Positions 3,159 to 19,221 of a DNA stretch of 35,827 nt are shown here, one piece after another; the first letter of the stretch is position 1, and every line of letters begins with the position of its first letter. Source of the DNA: Candidatus Colicola caccequi (GTDB taxonomy: Bacteria; Bacteroidota; Bacteroidia; Bacteroidales; Paludibacteraceae); contig JAGHTR010000066.1 in the NCBI GenBank assembly GCA_018065205.1, positions 1-35,827 on the forward strand, given 5' to 3'. Below the pieces are notes generated by a model that had not been told where the DNA came from, made no database searches, and saw nothing but the letters and a program-made list of their open reading frames with translations. Made by a program: the position numbers and the translations under genes.

Positions 3159-4352
3159 ATGAAGATATTAGTTTTGAACTGTGGTAGTTCGTCCATTAAG
3201 TACGCTTTGTACAATATGGATAATCGCACTGTGATGACATCCGGTGGCGCAGAGCGCGTTGGGTTGCCGGATGCGTTTGTAAAAGTGAAGATGCCTGATG
3301 GTGAGAAGAAAAAAATCATGCATGACATTCCTGAACATACTGAAGGTGTTAAGTTCATTTTCTCTTTACTCACCGATCCTGAGATAGGTGTTATCAAATC
3401 TCTCAAGGAGATTGATGCTGTGGGGCATCGTATGGTGCATGGCGGAGAAAAATTCCAGCAGAGTGTGCGCATTGATGAAGAGGTTCTTAAAGCATTTGAG
3501 GCTGTCAGTGACTTGGCTCCGTTGCATAATCCCGCCAATATGAAGGGAATAAAAGCGGTGTCTGAACTGATGCCCGGATTACCACAAGTAGGTGTGTTTG
3601 ATACGGCTTTCCATCAAACGATGCCGGATTATGCATATATGTACGCATTGCCCTACGATGTCTATAAAAAATATGGTGTACGCCGTTATGGTTTCCATGG
3701 TACATCTCATCGCTATGTGTCCCATCGTGTTTGCGAGATTCTTGGGGTGCCTTTTGATCAGCAGCGTATCATCACATGCCATATTGGCAATGGCGCTTCC
3801 TTGGCTGCAATCAAGAATGGTAAGTGTATGGATACCAGTATGGGCTTAACTCCACTTGAGGGTGTGATGATGGGCACTCGTGCCGGTGATGTAGATGGTG
3901 GGGCTATTACATACTTGATGAAGAAAATGCAAATGACTCCGGACCAAATGTCGAATTTCCTCAACAAGGATGGTGGTGTGGCCGGTATTGCTACGGTAGG
4001 TTCGGATATGCGTGATGTGGAGGCTGCTTGCAAAGATGGTGATGACCGAGCTCGTTTAGCCATTGAGATGTACTCGTATCGTATAAAAAAATACATCGGC
4101 GCTTATGCTGCTGCAATGGGGGGAGTAGATATTATCGTATTTACTGCCGGAGTAGGTGAAAATCAACCGGGATTGCGTCGTCGAATGTGCGAAGGATTAG
4201 AGTTCTTAGGTGTTAAGATTGACGAGAATGTAAATGCCACATTGCGTGGTGAGGAGAAGGTAATATCTGCCACGGATAGCAAAGTAAAAGTCGTGGTCGT
4301 ACCTACAGATGAAGAATTAATGATTGCATTAGACACACAAGCTTTATTATAA
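3159..4352 (+). CDS. ackA: Acetate kinase
   Basis: 397 aa; MKILVLNCGSSSIKY, GHRMVHGGEKF, FDTAFHQTMP, GFHGTSHRYVS, HIGNGASLAAI motifs. Confidence 0.97.
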   Translation: MKILVLNCGSSSIKYALYNMDNRTVMTSGGAERVGLPDAFVKVKMPDGEKKKIMHDIPEHTEGVKFIFSLLTDPEIGVIKSLKEIDAVGHRMVHGGEKFQQSVRIDEEVLKAFEAVSDLAPLHNPANMKGIKAVSELMPGLPQVGVFDTAFHQTMPDYAYMYALPYDVYKKYGVRRYGFHGTSHRYVSHRVCEILGVPFDQQRIITCHIGNGASLAAIKNGKCMDTSMGLTPLEGVMMGTRAGDVDGGAITYLMKKMQMTPDQMSNFLNKDGGVAGIATVGSDMRDVEAACKDGDDRARLAIEMYSYRIKKYIGAYAAAMGGVDIIVFTAGVGENQPGLRRRMCEGLEFLGVKIDENVNATLRGEEKVISATDSKVKVVVVPTDEELMIALDTQALL

Positions 4353-6011: not shown

Positions 6012-6973
6012 TGTTTGAACAAATTAAAGCATATTGTCGTTTGTTGCGTTGGCCTAATCTGATTATGCTCCTTATCGTGGTATGGGTGATGGAGCAGTGG
6101 GTTGCAGTCCCTGTGCTGAACGCCTGTCAGTTCGGTGTGCAATTACCTTGGTGGTGTGTGATGTTGATGATGCTATCTGTTACCTTTATTGCTGCGGGGG
6201 GATATGTGATTAACGACTATTTTGATATCAAGATTGACCGTATCAATAAACCTGATCAACTCATTGTAACACAATCCGTTACTAAGGATGCTGCGATGCA
6301 TTGTCATCAACTGCTCACTATTCTTGGTGCTGCAATGGGCTTGGTGGTGGCTTGGTGGTGCCGAAGTTGGGGTATCGGATTGACGATGATTCTGGTTCCT
6401 GGATTATTGTGGTTCTATTCCAGTAGTTATAAACGCCAGTTTATTATTGGCAATGTAATTGTGGCATTCTTGGCTGCTATGCCGTCGTTGGTTGTAGCAA
6501 TGGCCAATGTGGGATACTTGCAGCGTCGTTATGGCGATATCTTAGTTTTCTCTCCGGTTAACCAAGATCTCTATGTTTGGTTGGGTGGTTTTGGATTATT
6601 TGCTTTCCTCACAACGCTCATGCGTGAAATGATGAAGGATATGCAGGATCAACAGGGTGACCGTGAATTAGAATGCCATACCTTACCGGTGCGCTTTGGC
6701 GACTGGGCCACTAAGTGGGTTGTTACCATTATCGGAAGCATAACCCTTGGTTTGTTAGCATGGATAGGTTTTGATTTAGTTCCATATGAGCATACATGGA
6801 ATACATTAAGTTCACGGTACATAGCCTTTGGTATTATGACTCCGTTAGTATGTAGTTTGTGGCTGATGTGGGCCGCTAAGATTCCTTCGGACTATCGGTC
6901 GGCACAAGGTGTGATGAAGTTTGTGATGTTGATGGGTGTGCTTTACGGTTTTGTTATTTCTAACTCATTATGA
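6008..6973 (+). CDS. UbiA-family prenyltransferase
   Basis: 321 aa membrane protein; NDYFDIKIDRINKPDQ and second Asp-rich region DMQDQQGDRE; overlaps upstream stop by 4 nt. Confidence 0.88.
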   Translation: MMFEQIKAYCRLLRWPNLIMLLIVVWVMEQWVAVPVLNACQFGVQLPWWCVMLMMLSVTFIAAGGYVINDYFDIKIDRINKPDQLIVTQSVTKDAAMHCHQLLTILGAAMGLVVAWWCRSWGIGLTMILVPGLLWFYSSSYKRQFIIGNVIVAFLAAMPSLVVAMANVGYLQRRYGDILVFSPVNQDLYVWLGGFGLFAFLTTLMREMMKDMQDQQGDRELECHTLPVRFGDWATKWVVTIIGSITLGLLAWIGFDLVPYEHTWNTLSSRYIAFGIMTPLVCSLWLMWAAKIPSDYRSAQGVMKFVMLMGVLYGFVISNSL

Positions 6974-7536
6974 GAATTATCTTAGGTAGTCAGTCTCCAA
7001 GACGTCGTGAATTGATGGCAGGATTAGATATCCCATTTAAGACTATTACCATTGATGCGGATGAACATTATCCATCCTCGCTTCAAGGTGGCGATATACC
7101 TATCTACATTGCGTGCAACAAGGCGCGTGCATACGCGAGACCATTGGACTCGGACGAATTGCTGATTACGGCCGATACAATAGTGTGGCTGAATGGACAA
7201 GTACTAGGTAAACCTAAAGATGAATTAGATGCTTGCCGAATGTTGCGTATGCTGAGTGGTCAGACTCATCAGGTCTATACCGGAGTATGTTTTATGACCC
7301 AACAAGGCATAGTGGCTAAGTTTGTGGATAAAACCGATGTGACCTTTAAGCCGCTTACCGATGACGAGATAACTAACTACGTGGCAACCTACCATCCCTT
7401 AGATAAGGCCGGTGCTTATGGCGTGCAAGAATGGATAGGGTATGTTGCCGTAACACAGTTGAGTGGATCGTATTTTAACGTAATGGGGTTGCCTATTCAT
7501 CGCGTATATGCTACGCTTAAGGAATTAGGCTACTAG
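6970..7536 (+). CDS. maf: Maf-like nucleotide pyrophosphatase
   Basis: 188 aa; LGSQSPRRRELM, ADTIVWLNGQVLGKP, YTGV motifs. Confidence 0.93.
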   Translation: MRIILGSQSPRRRELMAGLDIPFKTITIDADEHYPSSLQGGDIPIYIACNKARAYARPLDSDELLITADTIVWLNGQVLGKPKDELDACRMLRMLSGQTHQVYTGVCFMTQQGIVAKFVDKTDVTFKPLTDDEITNYVATYHPLDKAGAYGVQEWIGYVAVTQLSGSYFNVMGLPIHRVYATLKELGY

Positions 7537-7539
7537 TTT

Positions 7540-8532
7540 TCACTGCAATCGATTGATACTATAATCTAACAAGGATAGTAAACTATTCTTGGCAGATGCC
7601 TCGTGGAAGATACTCAGGGCATCAATGGCTTGTTGTTTGTGTTGCTGCATTTGTTGGTACGCATAGCGAATGCCATCATATCGTAGCACAAAAGATTTAA
7701 TTTCTTGTTCAGCCTCAAAGGTATCAATATGTGGCTCTTTATGATATAAGTCCTCTGCTATCTGCTGAATCGCTTGACACTCTTCGCGAGAAGCTCGCTT
7801 GAGAGCAATGAGTAGTGGCAAGGTTGCTTTACCATCGCGGATATCTCCCATAGTAGGTTTGCCTATCTCATCCGAATCGGAATAATCCAAGATATCGTCT
7901 TTGATTTGGAAACACATACCTAAATGATGTCCAAACTCCCGTAATGCGGAGGCTTGCCGCATAGTGGAACCGGAAGATTCTGCTCCTGCTTCCATACAGG
8001 CGGCAAAAAGGCAAGCTGTTTTTTGCTCAATGACCCGGTAATATTGCTCTTCAGATATCCACATTGTGGCATTGGAATGCAATTGCAGTAGTTCGCCAGA
8101 AGACAAAGATACTCCCATTTCGGCGACAATATTTGTGATGCGAGCATTGCGTACATTAGCGATAAGTTGCATCACTCGTGCCAATAGAAAGTCGCCCACC
8201 AAAATAGCAATTTTATTGGTCCAACGTACATGTACAGCCTCATGCCCCCGACGAGTAATACTTGAGTCAACCACATCATCATGGATAAGGGACGCGGTAT
8301 GTAATAACTCCAAAGCTACAGCCGAGTCAATTGTTTTATCTGTAATGCCTCGGCATAACTTAGCCGATAATAGCACTAGTTGTGGACGCAGCTGTTTTCC
8401 ACGCTTAACAAGCAAGTATTGCAGCACATCTTTGAGTACAGGCTGATCGCACTGCAGGGCCTGCTCAAAAGAGTGCTCAAAGACATGGAAATCTTGTTTA
8501 ATAGGAGCGAGTATATCTTGTGGATTCACCAT
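7540..8532 (-). CDS. Polyprenyl synthetase family protein
   Basis: 330 aa; LIHDDVVD first and IKDDILDY second Asp-rich motifs, GKQLRP. Confidence 0.93.
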   Translation of the reverse strand: MVNPQDILAPIKQDFHVFEHSFEQALQCDQPVLKDVLQYLLVKRGKQLRPQLVLLSAKLCRGITDKTIDSAVALELLHTASLIHDDVVDSSITRRGHEAVHVRWTNKIAILVGDFLLARVMQLIANVRNARITNIVAEMGVSLSSGELLQLHSNATMWISEEQYYRVIEQKTACLFAACMEAGAESSGSTMRQASALREFGHHLGMCFQIKDDILDYSDSDEIGKPTMGDIRDGKATLPLLIALKRASREECQAIQQIAEDLYHKEPHIDTFEAEQEIKSFVLRYDGIRYAYQQMQQHKQQAIDALSIFHEASAKNSLLSLLDYSINRLQ

Positions 8533-8538
8533 ATTCAG

Positions 8539-9471
8539 TTAGTTATTATCTGTCTGCAAAAAATTAATGATTACTAGAGAGGCCATCGCTTCAACTATAG
8601 GAAGAGCTCGAAGAGCAATACAAGCATCATGCCGACCATTATAGCATTGTGTAATGGAGGATGCCGGTTTGAAAGCGCAACGAAACGAGATAGGTAATCC
8701 ATTGGTAATCCCCCCCTCTATACCACCGGAAGATGGACAAGGTATTTCACTATGGGCATAGAGGTCACTTCCGTGTTTAGACATATCGAAGCCTGTTCCA
8801 TATTCAAACCCTTTGCAACCATTGATGCTTAGCATCGCTGCGGCTAAGTGACTTTGTAACTTGTCAAAGATAGGTTCTCCTATTCCCGCTTTAACTCCTG
8901 TAATGATACATTGTACAATACCACCGATGCTATCACCTGCTTTTTGTGTGGCAGCCAATAGCGATTCAAAGCATTCACTGCGTGTTTCTAAACCGACTTG
9001 TATGACTTGTGCTTGGATAGTGATACCCTGCTTCTCTAGTTGCTGTTTTGCTATAGCCCCTGCTACGACACGTGAGGCGGTTTCTCGGGCAGAAGCTCGT
9101 CCTCCGCCGCGCCAGTCACGGATGCCGTACTTGACTTGATAGGTGTAATCGGCATGCCCGGGGCGATAATGATTCTTCATCCATTCATAGTCTTCCGGCC
9201 GAATATCTGTGTTGCGAATGATAAACGCGATTGGTGTACCTAATGTTACTCCATCCATTACACCGCTTAGCCACTCTACTTCATCTGCCTCGTTTTTGGC
9301 TCGCGGAGAGGTGCCGACGGCTTGTTTACCACTGCGACGGAGTATTTCGGATCTTACCAAGTCAAGATTAATATGCAACCCGGCAGGGACACCATCTAAT
9401 ACTCCACCGATAGCCTTGCCGTGCGATTCACCAAAACTTGTAAAGGTCCATTTTTCTCCAAAAAAGTTCAT
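8539..9471 (-). CDS. aroC: Chorismate synthase (compact, about 310 aa)
   Basis: Likely start MNFFGEKWTFTSFGESHG at 9471 (ORF track extends to 9492). RPGHADYTYQVKYGIRDWRGGGRASARETASRV, GIGEPIFDKL, LSINGCKGFEYGTGF, GGIEGGITNG, GRHDACIALRALPIVEAM. Confidence 0.93.
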   Translation of the reverse strand: MNFFGEKWTFTSFGESHGKAIGGVLDGVPAGLHINLDLVRSEILRRSGKQAVGTSPRAKNEADEVEWLSGVMDGVTLGTPIAFIIRNTDIRPEDYEWMKNHYRPGHADYTYQVKYGIRDWRGGGRASARETASRVVAGAIAKQQLEKQGITIQAQVIQVGLETRSECFESLLAATQKAGDSIGGIVQCIITGVKAGIGEPIFDKLQSHLAAAMLSINGCKGFEYGTGFDMSKHGSDLYAHSEIPCPSSGGIEGGITNGLPISFRCAFKPASSITQCYNGRHDACIALRALPIVEAMASLVIINFLQTDNN

Positions 9472-9489
9472 TGTGCACTTATTTTTCCG

Positions 9490-9537
9490 CAAAATTACAA
9501 ATAAATTTGCATATCTGCAAATATTTTAGTAACTTTG
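9490..9537. promoter_or_regulatory. Overlapping divergent promoters for aroC (-) and the PCMD-like gene (+)
   Basis: +: TTTG 9506-9509, N20, TAACTTTG 9530-9537. -: TTTG (CAAA 9518-9521), N20, TAATTTTG (9490-9497). Confidence 0.7.
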
Positions 9538-10548: not shown

Positions 10549-11715
10549 ATGGCAATGTATTGGCATGACATATCAATGTTGGATTATGGTTTGGCTGGGG
10601 CACTAGTCATTCTATTCTTGTATCAAGTGTATTTTTATGCACGTTACATTGCGGGAGTGAATAGATGGCGTCGCCGTAATGCAAAACCATTGGAGGTAAA
10701 GGATGAACAATTGCCTGGGGTATCGGTGATTGTGGCAGCTCGCAATGAGGAACAAAATTTAACAACGTTTTTGCCTGCACTCTTAGGACAGGACTATCCC
10801 AACTATGAGGTCATCGTGGTAAATGATGGTTCGGAAGATAATACAGAAGCCGTGCTTAGCGATTATACACATAAGTATAGCCATTTGCATATTACATTTG
10901 TGCCAGTTGAAGCTCGTGTCACATCTAGTAAAAAACTGGCGTTGACTTTAGCTGTCAAGGCTGCCCATAATGAGTTCCTGTTGTTCACAGATGCCGATTG
11001 TGTGCCGGAGTCCAACCAATGGATTAGAGAAATGATAGCACCAATGATAGGCGATAATGCAGAACAGCGCAAGGTGGTATTGGGGTATAGTCCATATTTC
11101 TCCGATGATAATGCTGTTAATCAAATCATACGTTACGATACCTTATTTTGTGGCTTACAATACTTAGGTATGGCATATAGCGGTCACCCATATATGGGGG
11201 TAGGACGAAACTTACTTTACCGTAAATCTATGTTTATGGAACGGAATGGTTTCTATGGTTTATTGGCTTTCCGCTCCGGCGATGACGATTTGTTTGTTAA
11301 TCGCGTAGCCACCAAACAGAATACAGTTATTGTGGCTTCGTCTAATAGCTTAAGTTGGTCCTTGCCTAAAACGACCTTTGCGGAGTGGGTTGTTCAGAAA
11401 CGTCGTCACTTAAGTGTCTCGCCATTCTATAAACCAGCTACTCGTCGTCGATTGGGATTAGAGCCTCTTACACGTGGATTGTGGTACTTGACGGTTGTGT
11501 TATGTTTTGTGCTTGGTAGCGCTTGGACGATGGCTTTGGCTTGGTTGCTGTTGGTGATTAGATTGTTAATACAAATGGGCATTATTAATAAAGCCGCTCG
11601 CCGATTTGGTGAAAAAACTTATGGGTTAGAGGTGATGTGGTATGATATATTACTGCCTGTGTTCACGGCCTTTTTGCTTTCTACCCAACCTAAGAATAGC
11701 ACCCGTTGCTGGTAA
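10549..11715 (+). CDS. Membrane GT2 family glycosyltransferase
   Basis: 388 aa; VSVIVAARNEEQNL, YEVIVVNDGSEDNT, LLFTDADCVP, SGDDDLFVNR, QKRRHLSV; TM helices at both ends. Confidence 0.9.
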   Translation: MAMYWHDISMLDYGLAGALVILFLYQVYFYARYIAGVNRWRRRNAKPLEVKDEQLPGVSVIVAARNEEQNLTTFLPALLGQDYPNYEVIVVNDGSEDNTEAVLSDYTHKYSHLHITFVPVEARVTSSKKLALTLAVKAAHNEFLLFTDADCVPESNQWIREMIAPMIGDNAEQRKVVLGYSPYFSDDNAVNQIIRYDTLFCGLQYLGMAYSGHPYMGVGRNLLYRKSMFMERNGFYGLLAFRSGDDDLFVNRVATKQNTVIVASSNSLSWSLPKTTFAEWVVQKRRHLSVSPFYKPATRRRLGLEPLTRGLWYLTVVLCFVLGSAWTMALAWLLLVIRLLIQMGIINKAARRFGEKTYGLEVMWYDILLPVFTAFLLSTQPKNSTRCW

Positions 11716-12962: not shown

Positions 12963-14951
12963 ATGAAACATACTATTTTTTGCTTGTTATCTGGTGTGAT
13001 GCTTCTAGCATCATGCCAGAAGCAAGCTGATTTTTCTTATTCAGTGGATCGTTTCTACGACATAGAAGTTTTGCGCTATCAAGTGCCGGGTTTTGAGCAG
13101 TTAACCTTGCCTCAAAAGACATTGGTTTATTACTTAACTGAGGCGGCTTTGCAAGGGCGAGACATATTGTTTGATCAGAATGGTCGGTATAACTTGCGTA
13201 TCCGTCGTACTTTAGAGGCTTTATATACGCAGTATCCGTATGCTAAAGATTCCGAGGAATACCAACAGCTGGAGAACTACCTCAAACGAGTTTGGTTCAG
13301 CAATGGTATTCATCATCATTATAGTTCGGATAAGTTTCTGCCGGAATTTACCCAAGAGTGGTTCGTAGAAGCCTGTGCGGCCGCACGTGTGTACTATGAC
13401 GAGGCTATTCTGCCCGTTATGTTTGATCCGACTGTTATGCCTAAACGCACCACGCAAGCTGACGGAGTGGATTTAGTGTTAGAATCAGCCGGTAATTACT
13501 ATGGTGAGGGCGTGACTCAAGCTGAAGCTGAGGTTTGGTATGATAGCCATAAGGACACATCTGACGAACCTCTTTGGATAGGTTTGAATAGTCAGTTGTG
13601 TAAGGACTCAACAGGTGCTATCTACGAGCGAGTGTACAAAGTGGGTGGTTTATATGGATCGGCTTTGGAAAAGGTTAATTACTGGTTAGAGAAAGCTCTG
13701 TCGGTAGCCGAGACGGATGAGCAACGCGAGGTTATCGCGCATCTCATTGAATTTAACCGCTCAGGAAACTTGCGCTCTTTCAATGCTTATTGTATTGCTT
13801 GGGTAAAGGATTTACAAAGTAAGGTAGATTTCGTGAATGGCTTCACGGAGACTTATACAGACCCATTAGGTATCACCGGAACGTGGGAGTCCTTGGTTAA
13901 TTTCAAGGACGAGGAAGCTACTCGCCGCACCGAGATTATTTCGGCTAATGCGCAATGGTTTGAGGACCATTCAACCACGGCTCCTATATATAAAAAGGAG
14001 GAGGTGAAAGGCGTGAGTGCCAAAGTGATTACGGCTGCTATTCTAGCCGGTGATTGCTATCCTGCAACCCCTATTGGTATCAATCTGCCCAATGCTAATT
14101 GGATTAGAAAAGCCTATGGGTCAAAATCCGTGACAATTGATAACTTAGTGCAAGCATACAATGAGTCTGCTAAAGGGAATGGCTTTAATGAGGAGTTTAT
14201 GATTGATGATGATATTCGTCAACTCTATGAACAATATGGAGCCCGTTGTGGTGACTTACATACTGATTTACATGAGTGTGTTGGGCATGGCTCCGGTAAA
14301 TTGATGCCGGGCGTAAGCAAGGATGCACTCAAGGAACATGCTTCCACGATTGAGGAAACGCGAGCAGACCTCTTTGCTTTGTATTTCTTAGGTGATGCTA
14401 AGTTGGTTGAGTTAGGACTATTGCCCAATTCGGAGGCGTATAAGGCAGCCTATTACCAACAGATAATGAATGGTTTAATGACTCAATTAGTGCGTATTGA
14501 ACCCGGCAAGGACATAGAGGAAGCACATATGCGTAATCGTCAACTCATTGCAGCATGGGTATATGATCACTGTGAAAACGGCGAGATGGCTATTGTTGAG
14601 AAGGATGGCAAGCATTATTTGCAAATCAATGACTACGAAGGTGTGCGCCGAGTGGTTGGCGATATGTTAGCAGAAATACAACGTATTACTTCTGAGGGAG
14701 ATTATCTTGCCGCAAAACAATTGGTGGAGACTTATGCCGTGAAGGTGGATCAGAGTCTGCATCAAGAGATGTTAACACGTTATGCAGCATTGAATTTGGC
14801 TCCATATAAAGGTTTTGTCAATCCTGTTTATCACGCTATTTATGATAGAAAGGGTAATATAAAGGATGTCAAAATTGATTATTCGGAGAATTATGTGGCA
14901 CAGCACTTGCGTTATAGCAATGACTATTCCAATTTGCCGGATATCAACTGA
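12963..14951 (+). CDS. M49 (dipeptidyl-peptidase III-like) lipoprotein metallopeptidase
   Basis: 662 aa; lipobox LLASC; HECVGH zinc motif and EETRADLFALYFL second motif. Confidence 0.88.
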   Translation: MKHTIFCLLSGVMLLASCQKQADFSYSVDRFYDIEVLRYQVPGFEQLTLPQKTLVYYLTEAALQGRDILFDQNGRYNLRIRRTLEALYTQYPYAKDSEEYQQLENYLKRVWFSNGIHHHYSSDKFLPEFTQEWFVEACAAARVYYDEAILPVMFDPTVMPKRTTQADGVDLVLESAGNYYGEGVTQAEAEVWYDSHKDTSDEPLWIGLNSQLCKDSTGAIYERVYKVGGLYGSALEKVNYWLEKALSVAETDEQREVIAHLIEFNRSGNLRSFNAYCIAWVKDLQSKVDFVNGFTETYTDPLGITGTWESLVNFKDEEATRRTEIISANAQWFEDHSTTAPIYKKEEVKGVSAKVITAAILAGDCYPATPIGINLPNANWIRKAYGSKSVTIDNLVQAYNESAKGNGFNEEFMIDDDIRQLYEQYGARCGDLHTDLHECVGHGSGKLMPGVSKDALKEHASTIEETRADLFALYFLGDAKLVELGLLPNSEAYKAAYYQQIMNGLMTQLVRIEPGKDIEEAHMRNRQLIAAWVYDHCENGEMAIVEKDGKHYLQINDYEGVRRVVGDMLAEIQRITSEGDYLAAKQLVETYAVKVDQSLHQEMLTRYAALNLAPYKGFVNPVYHAIYDRKGNIKDVKIDYSENYVAQHLRYSNDYSNLPDIN

Positions 14952-14954
14952 TAG

Positions 14955-16727
14955 ATGATTTCAATTGACTTACCCATATCAAAGAGTATAGCTAATCGTC
15001 GATTGATTATTCAAGCAATGCATGGTGACCCCCTAATGGAGGTCACTTGTGCTATGCCGGATGATGTGCGGCTATTACATGATGCTTTGGGGCAACTTCG
15101 CCAAGTTCAACAAGGGCAATCCATTACAATAGACTGCCATAACTGTGGCACGGCGATGCGATTCCTTACGGCTTATTGCGCACAATTAGACGGGTATGAG
15201 GTAGTGCTAACCGGAGATAACCGTATGTATGAACGCCCCATTCAACAAGAGGTGGAGGCTTTGCATCAATGTGGGGCGCAAATAATGTATATAGACAAGG
15301 ACGGTTTTCCGCCTTTGCGTATAGTGGGCACTAAGTTACTTCGTCATAAAGTAACTATCCAACGGCCATTATCTACGCAGTTTATTTCAGCACTGCTGCT
15401 GATTGGTATAGAAGTGACAACAGATGTGCAGTCTCCATATATCTCAATGACTCAACAAATGCAGAAGGGGTATGATACGATGGAACGCGATTGGTCTGCT
15501 GCTGCTTTTTGGTATGAGTACGTGGCCTTGCATGGTGGAGAAGTGTTACTGAATGAATTGCAACCGGATTCGTTGCAAGGAGATAGGGTGGTGGCCGACC
15601 TATTTCGAGCATTGGGTGTGGAGACCTATTTTATAAATGCGGGTGCGCGCATCGTGCGCGAGCACGCAACGGATAAGAGTCTTTTGCAGGTAGATTTTCG
15701 TTGCTGCCCAGATCTTTATCCGGCTGTTGCAATTACTTGTCGCCAACTGCATAAACCTTTGCAAGCAACTGGTACGGATGCATTACCTTATAAAGAATCC
15801 AATCGGTTGGAGTCTGTGGCACAATCGCTCCCTAATGCAGATCATCGCGTGGCGATGGCCTTATTAGCAGCAGATTTACCGTGTGATGATACGGATTGTA
15901 TCACCAAGTCCTATCCGCTATTTAGTCAACAACTAAATAAAATAAAGCAAATAAGTCATACCCAATCAACCTATCCGTTCACCATTGTTATTCCTCGTCG
16001 AGGCATCAATGATGATAACTTAGGTAAGAAGTATGCCTTGCGTCAATTGATTAGTGCTGCTACCACGGATTATATTTGGATGATGGACGATGATGTGCAG
16101 CCTTCGGTAGCGTCTAAATGGGATAGATTGAAGTTGTCAGGTGCAGATATGTACATATTGCCTTTGCGGATGCAAGGAGGTTCGTCTCTCATAGAACGGC
16201 TGCAGCAAGCAGAATATGCTGCAATGCAAGAACTGACGATGCAAACTGCTAAGAGGGGACGGGCTGTAATGTGCAGTGGTGCTAATTTGATTGTTAATAG
16301 AACACGGTGGTTGGAGGGCTATGAGGACTTGCATATTGAGATTCCTTCAGGTGACGATATGTTTGCCTTGGAGAGTTTTCGTCGTCGTGGCTTACGGATT
16401 GAAGTAATTGATGAACCGGATTATACAGCTACTATAACTGCCCATACGTCATTGCGTTCCTTATTGCGTCAACGTATGCGTTGGGCTGGTAAAGCACCGC
16501 ATTATACAGATGCCTACATTCTCCGTTGTGGATGTGCCGTGGTATTGGCTAATCTATGTCAATTAGTATGTCCACTGGTTGTTTTAATTAAATTCCCTGT
16601 TGAGTATTCACTCATCAAAAAAAGAGACCCGAAGGTCTCTTTTGGAGTAGCTTTGCTTTTAGAAGTTCTTTATCCGTTCTACGTATTACTTTGTTTAGTA
16701 GGCGGTTTGTTCCGTAAGCAATGGTAA
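14955..16727 (+). CDS. Fused compact EPSP synthase (AroA) + GT2 glycosyltransferase
   Basis: 590 aa single ORF. N-terminal AroA: LPISKSIANRR, NCGTAMRFLTAY, DGFPPLRI, STQFISALLL, ERDWSAAAFWYE, PYKESNRLES, DHRVAMALLAA. C-terminal GT2 (~15976-16727): FTIVIPRR, GKKYALRQLI, IWMMDDDVQP, GANLIVNRTRW, SGDDMFALESF, RQRMRWAGK plus TM helices. Confidence 0.9.
   Translation: MISIDLPISKSIANRRLIIQAMHGDPLMEVTCAMPDDVRLLHDALGQLRQVQQGQSITIDCHNCGTAMRFLTAYCAQLDGYEVVLTGDNRMYERPIQQEVEALHQCGAQIMYIDKDGFPPLRIVGTKLLRHKVTIQRPLSTQFISALLLIGIEVTTDVQSPYISMTQQMQKGYDTMERDWSAAAFWYEYVALHGGEVLLNELQPDSLQGDRVVADLFRALGVETYFINAGARIVREHATDKSLLQVDFRCCPDLYPAVAITCRQLHKPLQATGTDALPYKESNRLESVAQSLPNADHRVAMALLAADLPCDDTDCITKSYPLFSQQLNKIKQISHTQSTYPFTIVIPRRGINDDNLGKKYALRQLISAATTDYIWMMDDDVQPSVASKWDRLKLSGADMYILPLRMQGGSSLIERLQQAEYAAMQELTMQTAKRGRAVMCSGANLIVNRTRWLEGYEDLHIEIPSGDDMFALESFRRRGLRIEVIDEPDYTATITAHTSLRSLLRQRMRWAGKAPHYTDAYILRCGCAVVLANLCQLVCPLVVLIKFPVEYSLIKKRDPKVSFGVALLLEVLYPFYVLLCLVGGLFRKQW
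16617..16643 (-). terminator. Intrinsic terminator for the secG operon, inside the opposite-strand CDS
   Basis: Minus strand AAAAGAGACC-TTCG-GGTCTCTTTTTTT: perfect stem, UUCG tetraloop and 7-U tract, about 85 nt past the secG stop. Confidence 0.85.
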
Positions 16728-17075
16728 TTATTCTGCTTGATTAGCAGCTTCTTCGCTAAAATCAGCAGCGGGAGCAGTGGGTTGTGGCAGTGCTTCAGCA
16801 GCGCGCTCAACTTGCTCAGTAATAGCGCTATCTTCAGCTGTCATTTCGCGTTGACCTTGTTTAATTCCAACGGCTAAGATGCTTAAGAAAACGATGATGC
16901 CGGCTAAGGTCCAACTTGCTTTCTCAAGGAAGTCGGTTGTCTTAGGTGCACCCATTACTTGGTTACCACTGGCAAAACCTGCAGCCAAACCTCCGCCCTT
17001 GCTGTTCTGAACCAGAACCAAGAGGATAAGCAGAATAGCTGCGATTACAATAAAAACAGTAAATAGAGTGTACAT
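16728..17075 (-). CDS. secG: Preprotein translocase subunit SecG
   Basis: 115 aa; LLILLVLVQNSKGGGLAAGF..NQVMGAPKTTDFLEKASWTLA. Confidence 0.95.
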   Translation of the reverse strand: MYTLFTVFIVIAAILLILLVLVQNSKGGGLAAGFASGNQVMGAPKTTDFLEKASWTLAGIIVFLSILAVGIKQGQREMTAEDSAITEQVERAAEALPQPTAPAADFSEEAANQAE

Positions 17076-17668: not shown

Positions 17669-18829
17669 CTAAATCCCGTATTCTTTTATCTTACGGTATA
17701 ACGTTCTCTCTGACATACCTAACATCTTAGCCGCTTCGCGCCGATTACCCTGACTTTTTTCTAAAGCTCGAAGAGTTTGTTCCTTAGCTACTTCATCAAT
17801 GCTACTTACCTCTTCTGCATATTCCTCAGCCTCTTCCGCATCATCATAATGGTGAATGGGGGTATCTACTAAGGGTGTGCGAGGTTCTGCAGAATTACGC
17901 ATTAAATCTTGAATCTGCTGCCGCATATCGCTCATATCCCGTTTCATATCAAAAAGTATTTTGTACAGGATATCTCGCTCATTCATGAAGTTGCCTTCTT
18001 GTGTGGTTGTTTTGCCTAACACAATGGCATGTGTACCTTCGTTAACGGGCAAATACTTGCGTAGCGTATCAGCGGTAATGTCATGATTCTTTTCAATAAC
18101 ACTGATTTGCTCTGCAACGTTCTTTAGTTGACGTACATTGCCGTTCCAATAATAACTCTTGAGCAATTCTGTAGCCTCATCGTTTAGTCTAACTGCAGGC
18201 ATCCGATACTTGTCGCTACAATCTAAAGCGAACTTATGGAATAGCATTGGAATATCTTCTTTGCGTTCACGAAGAGCCGGTACTTTAATCTCCACGGTGT
18301 TTAGACGATAATAGAGGTCTTCCCGGAACTTGCCTTCGCGTATAGCCTGCTGCATGTCTATGTTAGTGGCCGCCACTACTCGTACGTTTGTTTTTTGTAC
18401 TGTACTGGATCCCATCCGAATAAATTCACCGGTTTCTAAAACACGCAACAGACGCACTTGAGTGGCTAAGGGTAACTCGCCCACTTCATCTAAGAATAAT
18501 GTTCCACCATTAGCTATTTCAAAATAACCTTTACGATCGGCTTTTGCATCGGTGAAGGCTCCTCTTTCATGACCGAATAATTCGCTGTCAATTGTTCCCT
18601 CAGGGATTGCTCCGCAGTTGATGGCAAAATACGGACCGTGCTTCCGTGCGCTATACGCATGAATAATTTGTGGGAAGAACTCTTTGCCGGATCCTGATTC
18701 GCCGGTTACCAATACACTCAAATCAGTCAAAGCGACTTGCACAGCCACTTCAATTGCGCGATTTAAGCGGTCGTTTTGACCAATGATGCCAAATCGCTGT
18801 TTGATGTTTTGTAACTCTTGAGATGTCAT
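17669..18829 (-). CDS. Sigma-54-interaction-domain (AAA+) Fis-family transcriptional regulator
   Basis: Start MTSQELQNIKQRFGIIG at 18829 (ORF track N-extension lies in tmRNA). Walker A GESGSGKE, ERGAFTDA, GGTLFLDEVGELP, Fis HTH REAAKMLGMSERTLYRKIKEYGI. Confidence 0.93.
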   Translation of the reverse strand: MTSQELQNIKQRFGIIGQNDRLNRAIEVAVQVALTDLSVLVTGESGSGKEFFPQIIHAYSARKHGPYFAINCGAIPEGTIDSELFGHERGAFTDAKADRKGYFEIANGGTLFLDEVGELPLATQVRLLRVLETGEFIRMGSSTVQKTNVRVVAATNIDMQQAIREGKFREDLYYRLNTVEIKVPALRERKEDIPMLFHKFALDCSDKYRMPAVRLNDEATELLKSYYWNGNVRQLKNVAEQISVIEKNHDITADTLRKYLPVNEGTHAIVLGKTTTQEGNFMNERDILYKILFDMKRDMSDMRQQIQDLMRNSAEPRTPLVDTPIHHYDDAEEAEEYAEEVSSIDEVAKEQTLRALEKSQGNRREAAKMLGMSERTLYRKIKEYGI

Positions 18830-18831
18830 AG

Positions 18832-19221
18832 TGGAGATAGTGGGAGTCGAACCCACGTCCAAACAAGGAATCAATACGCTTTCTACATGCTTATCTTGGC
18901 CTGCATTTTCGTGCTTTAACAAGACCCAAGCCACCAATTAAAGCCTTATCTGCTAATGTCTCATTGACGCACCGCAGCTTACGTCAACCATCTTCGCAAT
19001 TTCTGCACCGCTATATCCATTCAGCCGCGAAGCCGGGCTTGGAGCGATGTCTCGTCTCCCAACCTTGTCGGGAGAAAAAAGTAATCTTACTATACTTCAG
19101 ATTAAGCAGCGAGAGCTACATTGTTGTTGCCAGTTAAACTGTTGGACCCTAAGTACGAGCGGTGTCCATGCTCGGCATGCTTACATACCTATTCTGCCTG
19201 CTGTCAAAACCAATTATCCCC
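18832..19221 (-). ncRNA. ssrA: tmRNA
   Basis: Minus strand GGGGATAATTGGTTTTGACAG 5' end and TTTGGACGTGGGTTCGACTCCCACTATCTCCA 3' end pair as acceptor (GGGGATA/TATCTCC); tag frame at 19102-19131 encodes GNNNVALAA*. Confidence 0.96.

Follow-up and report, generated by a model that had tools for sequence, protein, structure and literature searches.

How did an enzyme of the shikimate pathway come to share one reading frame with a membrane glycosyltransferase, and does the shared chain act as a single functional unit? The locus lies in a 35,827-nucleotide stretch of DNA from Candidatus Colicola caccequi, referred to in its entirety as the window. Positions 14955-16727 of the forward strand form a single ATG-started ORF of 590 codons (590 aa) with zero internal stops. 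An initial annotation had read this ORF as an EPSP synthase (AroA) joined to a membrane GT2 glycosyltransferase, and the single frame, the Pfam matches, and the conservation of the architecture across species bear this out; the motifs quoted there were located at 14979-15917 for AroA and 16086-16484 for the GT. The domain search proposed in that annotation returned EPSP_synthase (PF00275, E = 2.1e-41) in three stretches, of which residues 45-169 were the best, at 142.4 bits against a curated cut-off of 22.8, and the GT2-clan model Glyco_tranf_2_3 (PF13641, E = 3e-9) over residues 357-511, at 37.7 bits against a cut-off of 27. PF00535 fell marginally under its cut-off (23.2 versus 23.3 bits) because matching was limited to profile positions 61-92.

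The AlphaFold2 model, also proposed initially and built here from an alignment of 56 sequences (the window protein and related ones), covered all 590 residues with a mean pLDDT of 93.8 and a pTM of 0.66, and linker residues 331-340 had a pLDDT of about 72. Foldseek searches with this model gave EPSP synthases as the top matches (E = 1.9e-22), and a PDB sequence search with the fusion protein likewise returned EPSP synthases. Two hydrophobic, predicted transmembrane (TM) segments were present, both C-terminal (residues 525-547 and 565-586; 16527-16712, + strand).

Whether the two genes had been joined by an assembly or sequencing artefact had to be considered, given that fused and split states are interconvertible by single frameshifts and that frame breaks were seen in a few MAGs (L086, L090, and L058). 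However, the same 590-aa ORF was found at 85-86% identity in the closest species (G017/L031, G427, and L032, the last being 'Candidatus Colicola equi'), and the fusion was carried by dozens of independently assembled MAGs, two neighbours of exactly 590 aa among them. With the loci drawn from different species and from separate MAG assemblies, the pattern cannot be put down to an assembly error; the conservation rules it out, and we regard an artefactual join of any kind as next to impossible. The initial annotation had linked the existence of relatives with two separate genes to an assembly error in this genome. Relatives of that kind do occur, yet others share the conserved fusion, and the fusion in the window is genuine; split versus fused is a true polymorphism within this gut-dwelling Bacteroidales genus.

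Neither half of the protein is full-length. The EPSP synthase domain (residues 1-335; 14955-15959, +), identified by PF00275 and Foldseek, is trimmed, as core lengths indicate. Between the SKS and KSYP motifs, the window core measured 309 residues, compared with 368-373 in nine outgroup Bacteroidales AroAs; across the genus, the core ranged from 274 to 372 residues (median 309), and it was reduced to about 275 in a ruminant subclade. Relative to E. coli and the outgroups, the stretch following SPYISMT was missing, as was the alpha-beta-beta stretch that the outgroups carry between KESNR and DHR, and the ruminant subclade additionally lacked most of the RLMER-to-TSQ stretch.

When the active site was examined by alignment, the S3P/PEP-binding K, S, and R were found in SKSIANR (14979-14999; E. 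coli K22, S23, and R27), followed on the same strand (+) by NCGTAMR (15141-15161; N94, G96, T97, and R100), KESNR (15792-15806; K340, E341, and R344), with the alpha-beta-beta gap directly after it, DHRVAM (15840-15857; H385 and R386), and ITKSYP (15900-15917; K411), where the catalytic core ends. The window matched E. coli K22, S23, R27, G96, T97, R100, R124, Q171, Y200, D313, K340, E341, R344, H385, R386, and K411, and these 16 positions varied little or not at all across 79 genus members. E. coli S170 was replaced by T, and the columns of S197 and N336 were mismatched in the alignment used. The most trimmed form (L039) still matched EPSP synthases, and its model had a mean pLDDT of 86.2. 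The AroA half scored 157.4 bits against the TIGR01356 equivalog cut-off of 287.25, which is an annotation threshold and not a biochemical definition; a miss is expected because the protein has large deletions. Sequence, fold, and active-site residues place this half in the EPSP synthase family, and the corresponding activity is predicted.

The GT half (residues 341-590; 15975-16724, +) is a miniaturised GT2 domain with no N-terminal TM helix, in which strand beta1 almost abuts the GKK helix. Alignment with the full-length relatives L097, L099, L145, L148, L149, and L151, which possess the N-terminal segment and the whole of beta1-alphaA-beta2-alphaB-beta3, placed the deletion junction at FTIVIPRRGINDDNLGKK (15978-16031, +), where the GT-A elements alphaA-beta2-alphaB-beta3 are gone. 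The N-terminal hydrophobic segment of four full-length relatives was also missing from the window protein, and the complete nucleotide-binding half of the GT-A fold (beta1-alphaA-beta2-alphaB-beta3) was not found in its GT domain. Most genus members have beta1 (FTIVIPRRG) joined directly to INDDNLGKK. Intermediate GT forms occurred in L088, L077, L100, and L007/L062, and L025 (G011) is fused yet keeps a beta2-like stretch, IDDHSEDN. The part of the GT-A fold from alphaA to beta3 normally binds the nucleotide base, and the donor chemistry of the trimmed domain is uncertain given the loss of the usual beta2 uridine-binding region. The motifs that remain lie on the + strand: the DxD-type metal/nucleotide motif DDDV (16086-16097), the GT2 acidic motif SGDDM (16347-16361), and RQRMRW, the QxxRW motif of membrane GT2 enzymes (16467-16484). 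Across the genus, DxD was found in 79/82, SGDD in 82/82, and QRxRW in 82/82 sequences. By sequence, this half is a GT2 homologue, a designation that stops short of claiming full GT2 function.

Short repeats were observed within the genes of two relatives. In L138 (G014), in-frame repeats lie inside both AroA and the GT (3659-3724 and 7067-7846), each unit consisting of GGACG, a short hairpin, and CTATA/T, with stems that differ; the pattern applied to the window's genome (G000) detected no copy of this hairpin repeat. In L051, in-frame 16-nt units surround TCCTACAGCG (6680-6737 and 7109-7179). The hairpin units of L138 and the 16-nt units of L051 resemble palindromic elements that have inserted into reading frames. 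A TCCCTTCCCTTCAGGG-type repeat also occurs twice within the AroA part of L051 (6180-6213 and 6457-6490), translated in frame.

Comparison of the window with L031 and L032 (dS 0.73-0.99) gave dN/dS values of 0.09-0.10 for AroA and 0.084-0.086 for the GT; the domains in other species pairs were in agreement (0.08-0.25). Purifying selection acts strongly on both halves. For the 19-codon linker between them (15918-15974, +), the same comparison gave a near-neutral value of 0.68, which is rough owing to the shortness of the segment. The spacing from KSYP to GKK ranged from 22 to 75 aa; 18 further fused genes among the 48 share with the window the lack of any in-frame ATG, GTG, or TTG in this interval, which leaves their GTs without a separate canonical start. 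These values bear on the idea that the GT half is a mere membrane anchor or scaffold for AroA and has lost its glycosyltransferase role. The missing first TM helix and the missing alphaA-beta2-alphaB-beta3 elements would fit such a loss; however, nearly every genus member carries DxD, SGDD, and QRxRW, constraint extends over the whole domain (dN/dS of about 0.085 against the nearest species), and the trimmed GT also exists unfused, where anchoring of AroA is impossible. We therefore consider it quite improbable that the GT only anchors.

The survey of related Bacteroidales suggested by the initial annotation yielded 88 non-redundant loci (85 from the genus and three outgroup GTs). The genes were fused in 48 of the 88, a majority (48/78) of the loci where both were seen together; in 26 they were adjacent but split, in 4 they lay kilobases apart, and in 10 only one of the two was visible. 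Split pairs were almost always in the -1 frame, mostly overlapping, with the GT frame overlapping or closely trailing the aroA stop; an exception was G016 (L003), in which one in-frame TAA separates the AroA and GT halves. In L088/L142 and L094-L096, aroA and the GT gene were 3.5-4.7 kb apart, and in G014/L138 about 2.9 kb apart, with other genes intervening; the GT was already short in all these separated loci. In G085 and L145, from a sister genus within the same family, a 397-aa AroA was followed, after a gap of one base, by a full-length 373-aa GT2. Among the matches listed from a 393-genome sample of the order, fused ones came from genus members only.

On a tree of 75 concatenated AroA and GT rows, the fused label required nine changes, or at least five when only starred branches were counted; the tree was a quick build with no outgroup, and it does not polarise gain versus loss of the fusion. 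A topology forcing all fused rows together was rejected (AU p = 1e-52), which rules out a single origin of the fusion without reversal. We infer that full-length tandem genes came first and that trimming and fusion arose later. The initial interpretation was right that this is a genuine AroA-GT2 fusion, that it probably tethers AroA to the membrane, and that a neutral fusion is plausible, but it overlooked the trimming of both domains evident from core lengths and alignment, the loss from the GT of its N-terminal TM helix and of alphaA-beta2-alphaB-beta3 (unfused relatives included), the old gene neighbourhood, and the repeated switching between fused and split states.

In the window, an M49 peptidase gene (12963-14951, +) ends 3 bases before the fusion ORF, and a convergent secG (16728-17075, -) abuts its stop codon; both neighbours are syntenic in relatives. 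The gene for the next pathway enzyme after AroA, chorismate synthase (aroC; 8539-9492, -), lies in the same neighbourhood. The host genome is 94% complete (1.71 Mb), and no second EPSP synthase match was found there. Genes aroB and aroE were found on other contigs and a type II dehydroquinase on contig C181; together with aroC, these finds rule out a missing shikimate pathway. The shikimate kinase gene aroK was not found in this MAG; it is present in nearly all genus relatives, G017 included, and its absence is likely a MAG gap. Since the fused AroA is the sole one found and the pathway is near-complete, it would most simply be the working EPSP synthase of the organism. A search for plasmid homologues of the fusion gave no match. 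In G068, a 1.4-Mb genome of unstated completeness, aroA was present and the GT was not detectable.

Three further features of the window were recorded. A second membrane GT2, full-length at 388 aa, is encoded at 10549-11715, a few genes upstream of the fusion. Match lengths of the AroC at 8539-9492 were slightly shorter in the genus than in several Bacteroidales, so AroA and the GT may not be the only proteins to have become mildly shorter. The TTG-started frame of a sigma-54-type regulator (17669-18937, -) apparently begins in a tRNA-like T-arm near 18860, and its true start is likely the methionine of MTSQELQN.

The best explanation, to which we assign a probability of about 0.7, is that neighbouring genes were trimmed, came to overlap, and were repeatedly fused, giving a bifunctional product with independent chemistries. 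The starting point would have been a full-length aroA and a full-length membrane GT2 gene, long-standing neighbours in tandem. Progressive trimming would then have stripped the GT of its N-terminal TM helix, the GT-A nucleotide-binding sheet of one edge, and AroA of peripheral helix and strand elements; the frames would have come to overlap, mostly in -1, and single indels or stop losses would have joined the genes several times. Loss of the GT N-terminal TM helix would be the permissive step, and was presumably needed for fusion, because AroA would otherwise be placed in front of a membrane-crossing helix. In the resulting chain, AroA would work in the cytosol as a normal EPSP synthase while the C-terminal TM helices of the GT anchor it to the membrane, and the GT may still act on some membrane or lipid-linked acceptor. 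From the predicted TM segments, a membrane tether of AroA is likely, and the two chemistries are probably independent.

A different possibility is functional coupling, in which a shikimate-pathway product is either used by the GT at the membrane or regulates it there, and AroA is tethered for channelling or stoichiometry. Fusion has recurred and is the majority state, adjacency extends to the sister genus, and aroC is nearby, all of which would suit such coupling; on the other hand, the linker is near-neutral and variable in length, the genes are split or kilobases apart in many species, and one 1.4-Mb genome has aroA with no detectable GT. Moreover, no known substrate is common to the two families: EPSP synthase takes S3P/PEP and GT2 takes NDP-sugar. 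Obligatory coupling in particular is disfavoured by such a linker, by the number of split relatives, and by the genome with no detectable GT; channelling is unlikely, and coupling as a whole appears to us an unlikely reading. Slightly less likely again is a reading of the fusion as one functional unit, with a minimal EPSP synthase kept at the membrane and coupled to a half-length GT-A domain that, devoid of the canonical uridine-binding strands, has been repurposed for a new donor, for regulation, or for anchoring. Under the preferred reading of trimmed and repeatedly joined neighbours, a neutral gene fusion is plausible. As a counterpoint, adjacency has been kept over large divergence and fusion is recurrent, which leaves room for a benefit; fixed stoichiometry, for example, could be one.

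In the genus, two classic folds form a natural deletion series that selection has apparently preserved: EPSP synthase, whose cores range between roughly 370 and 275 residues, and GT2, which is missing half of its nucleotide-binding sheet. Recurrent fusion of unrelated neighbouring enzymes also cautions against reading functional links from gene fusions. EPSP synthase is the target of glyphosate, and the fusion may represent a membrane-tethered form of it.

The open-access papers searched, an incomplete collection, contained no account of an AroA-GT2 fusion; the locus combines known families in an undescribed pairing, both unusually trimmed. Multidomain EPSP synthases are rare in bacteria and usually have two domains (PMC9394408). 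The models for AroA-Cmk (EPSP synthase/cytidylate kinase, NF008816) and TyrA-AroA (prephenate dehydrogenase/EPSP synthase, NF011381), two-domain bacterial proteins like the fusion, matched the AroA half far under their curated cut-offs (94 versus 943 and 41 versus 902 bits), and the Pfam output for the fusion ORF contained no cytidylate kinase or prephenate dehydrogenase domain. The partner is a soluble enzyme in both of those proteins, whereas in the window it is a membrane GT2. The pentafunctional fungal AROM protein, found through sequence and fold searches, also holds an EPSP synthase in a multidomain chain, but its partners are other shikimate enzymes, with no GT and no membrane part. The AroA half has the fold and active-site residues of E. 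coli-type EPSP synthases (1G6S; V. cholerae 3NVS) and is about 90 residues shorter (335 versus 426-427), lacking secondary-structure elements in each of the two halves of that fold. Membrane GT2 enzymes with QxxRW, such as hyaluronan synthase and chitin synthase, share DxD, SGDD, QxxRW, and C-terminal TM helices with the window GT, and the L039 model matched Chlorella virus hyaluronan synthase; unlike these enzymes, the window GT has no N-terminal TM helix and no alphaA-beta2-alphaB-beta3, and spans only about 250 aa. Its closest homologues are the full-length Bacteroidales GT2 proteins of 356-373 aa (L097, L099, and L145), which have SGDDMFLL and QRxRW in common with it but, in contrast to the window GT, are unfused and carry the N-terminal TM helix and a complete GT-A fold.
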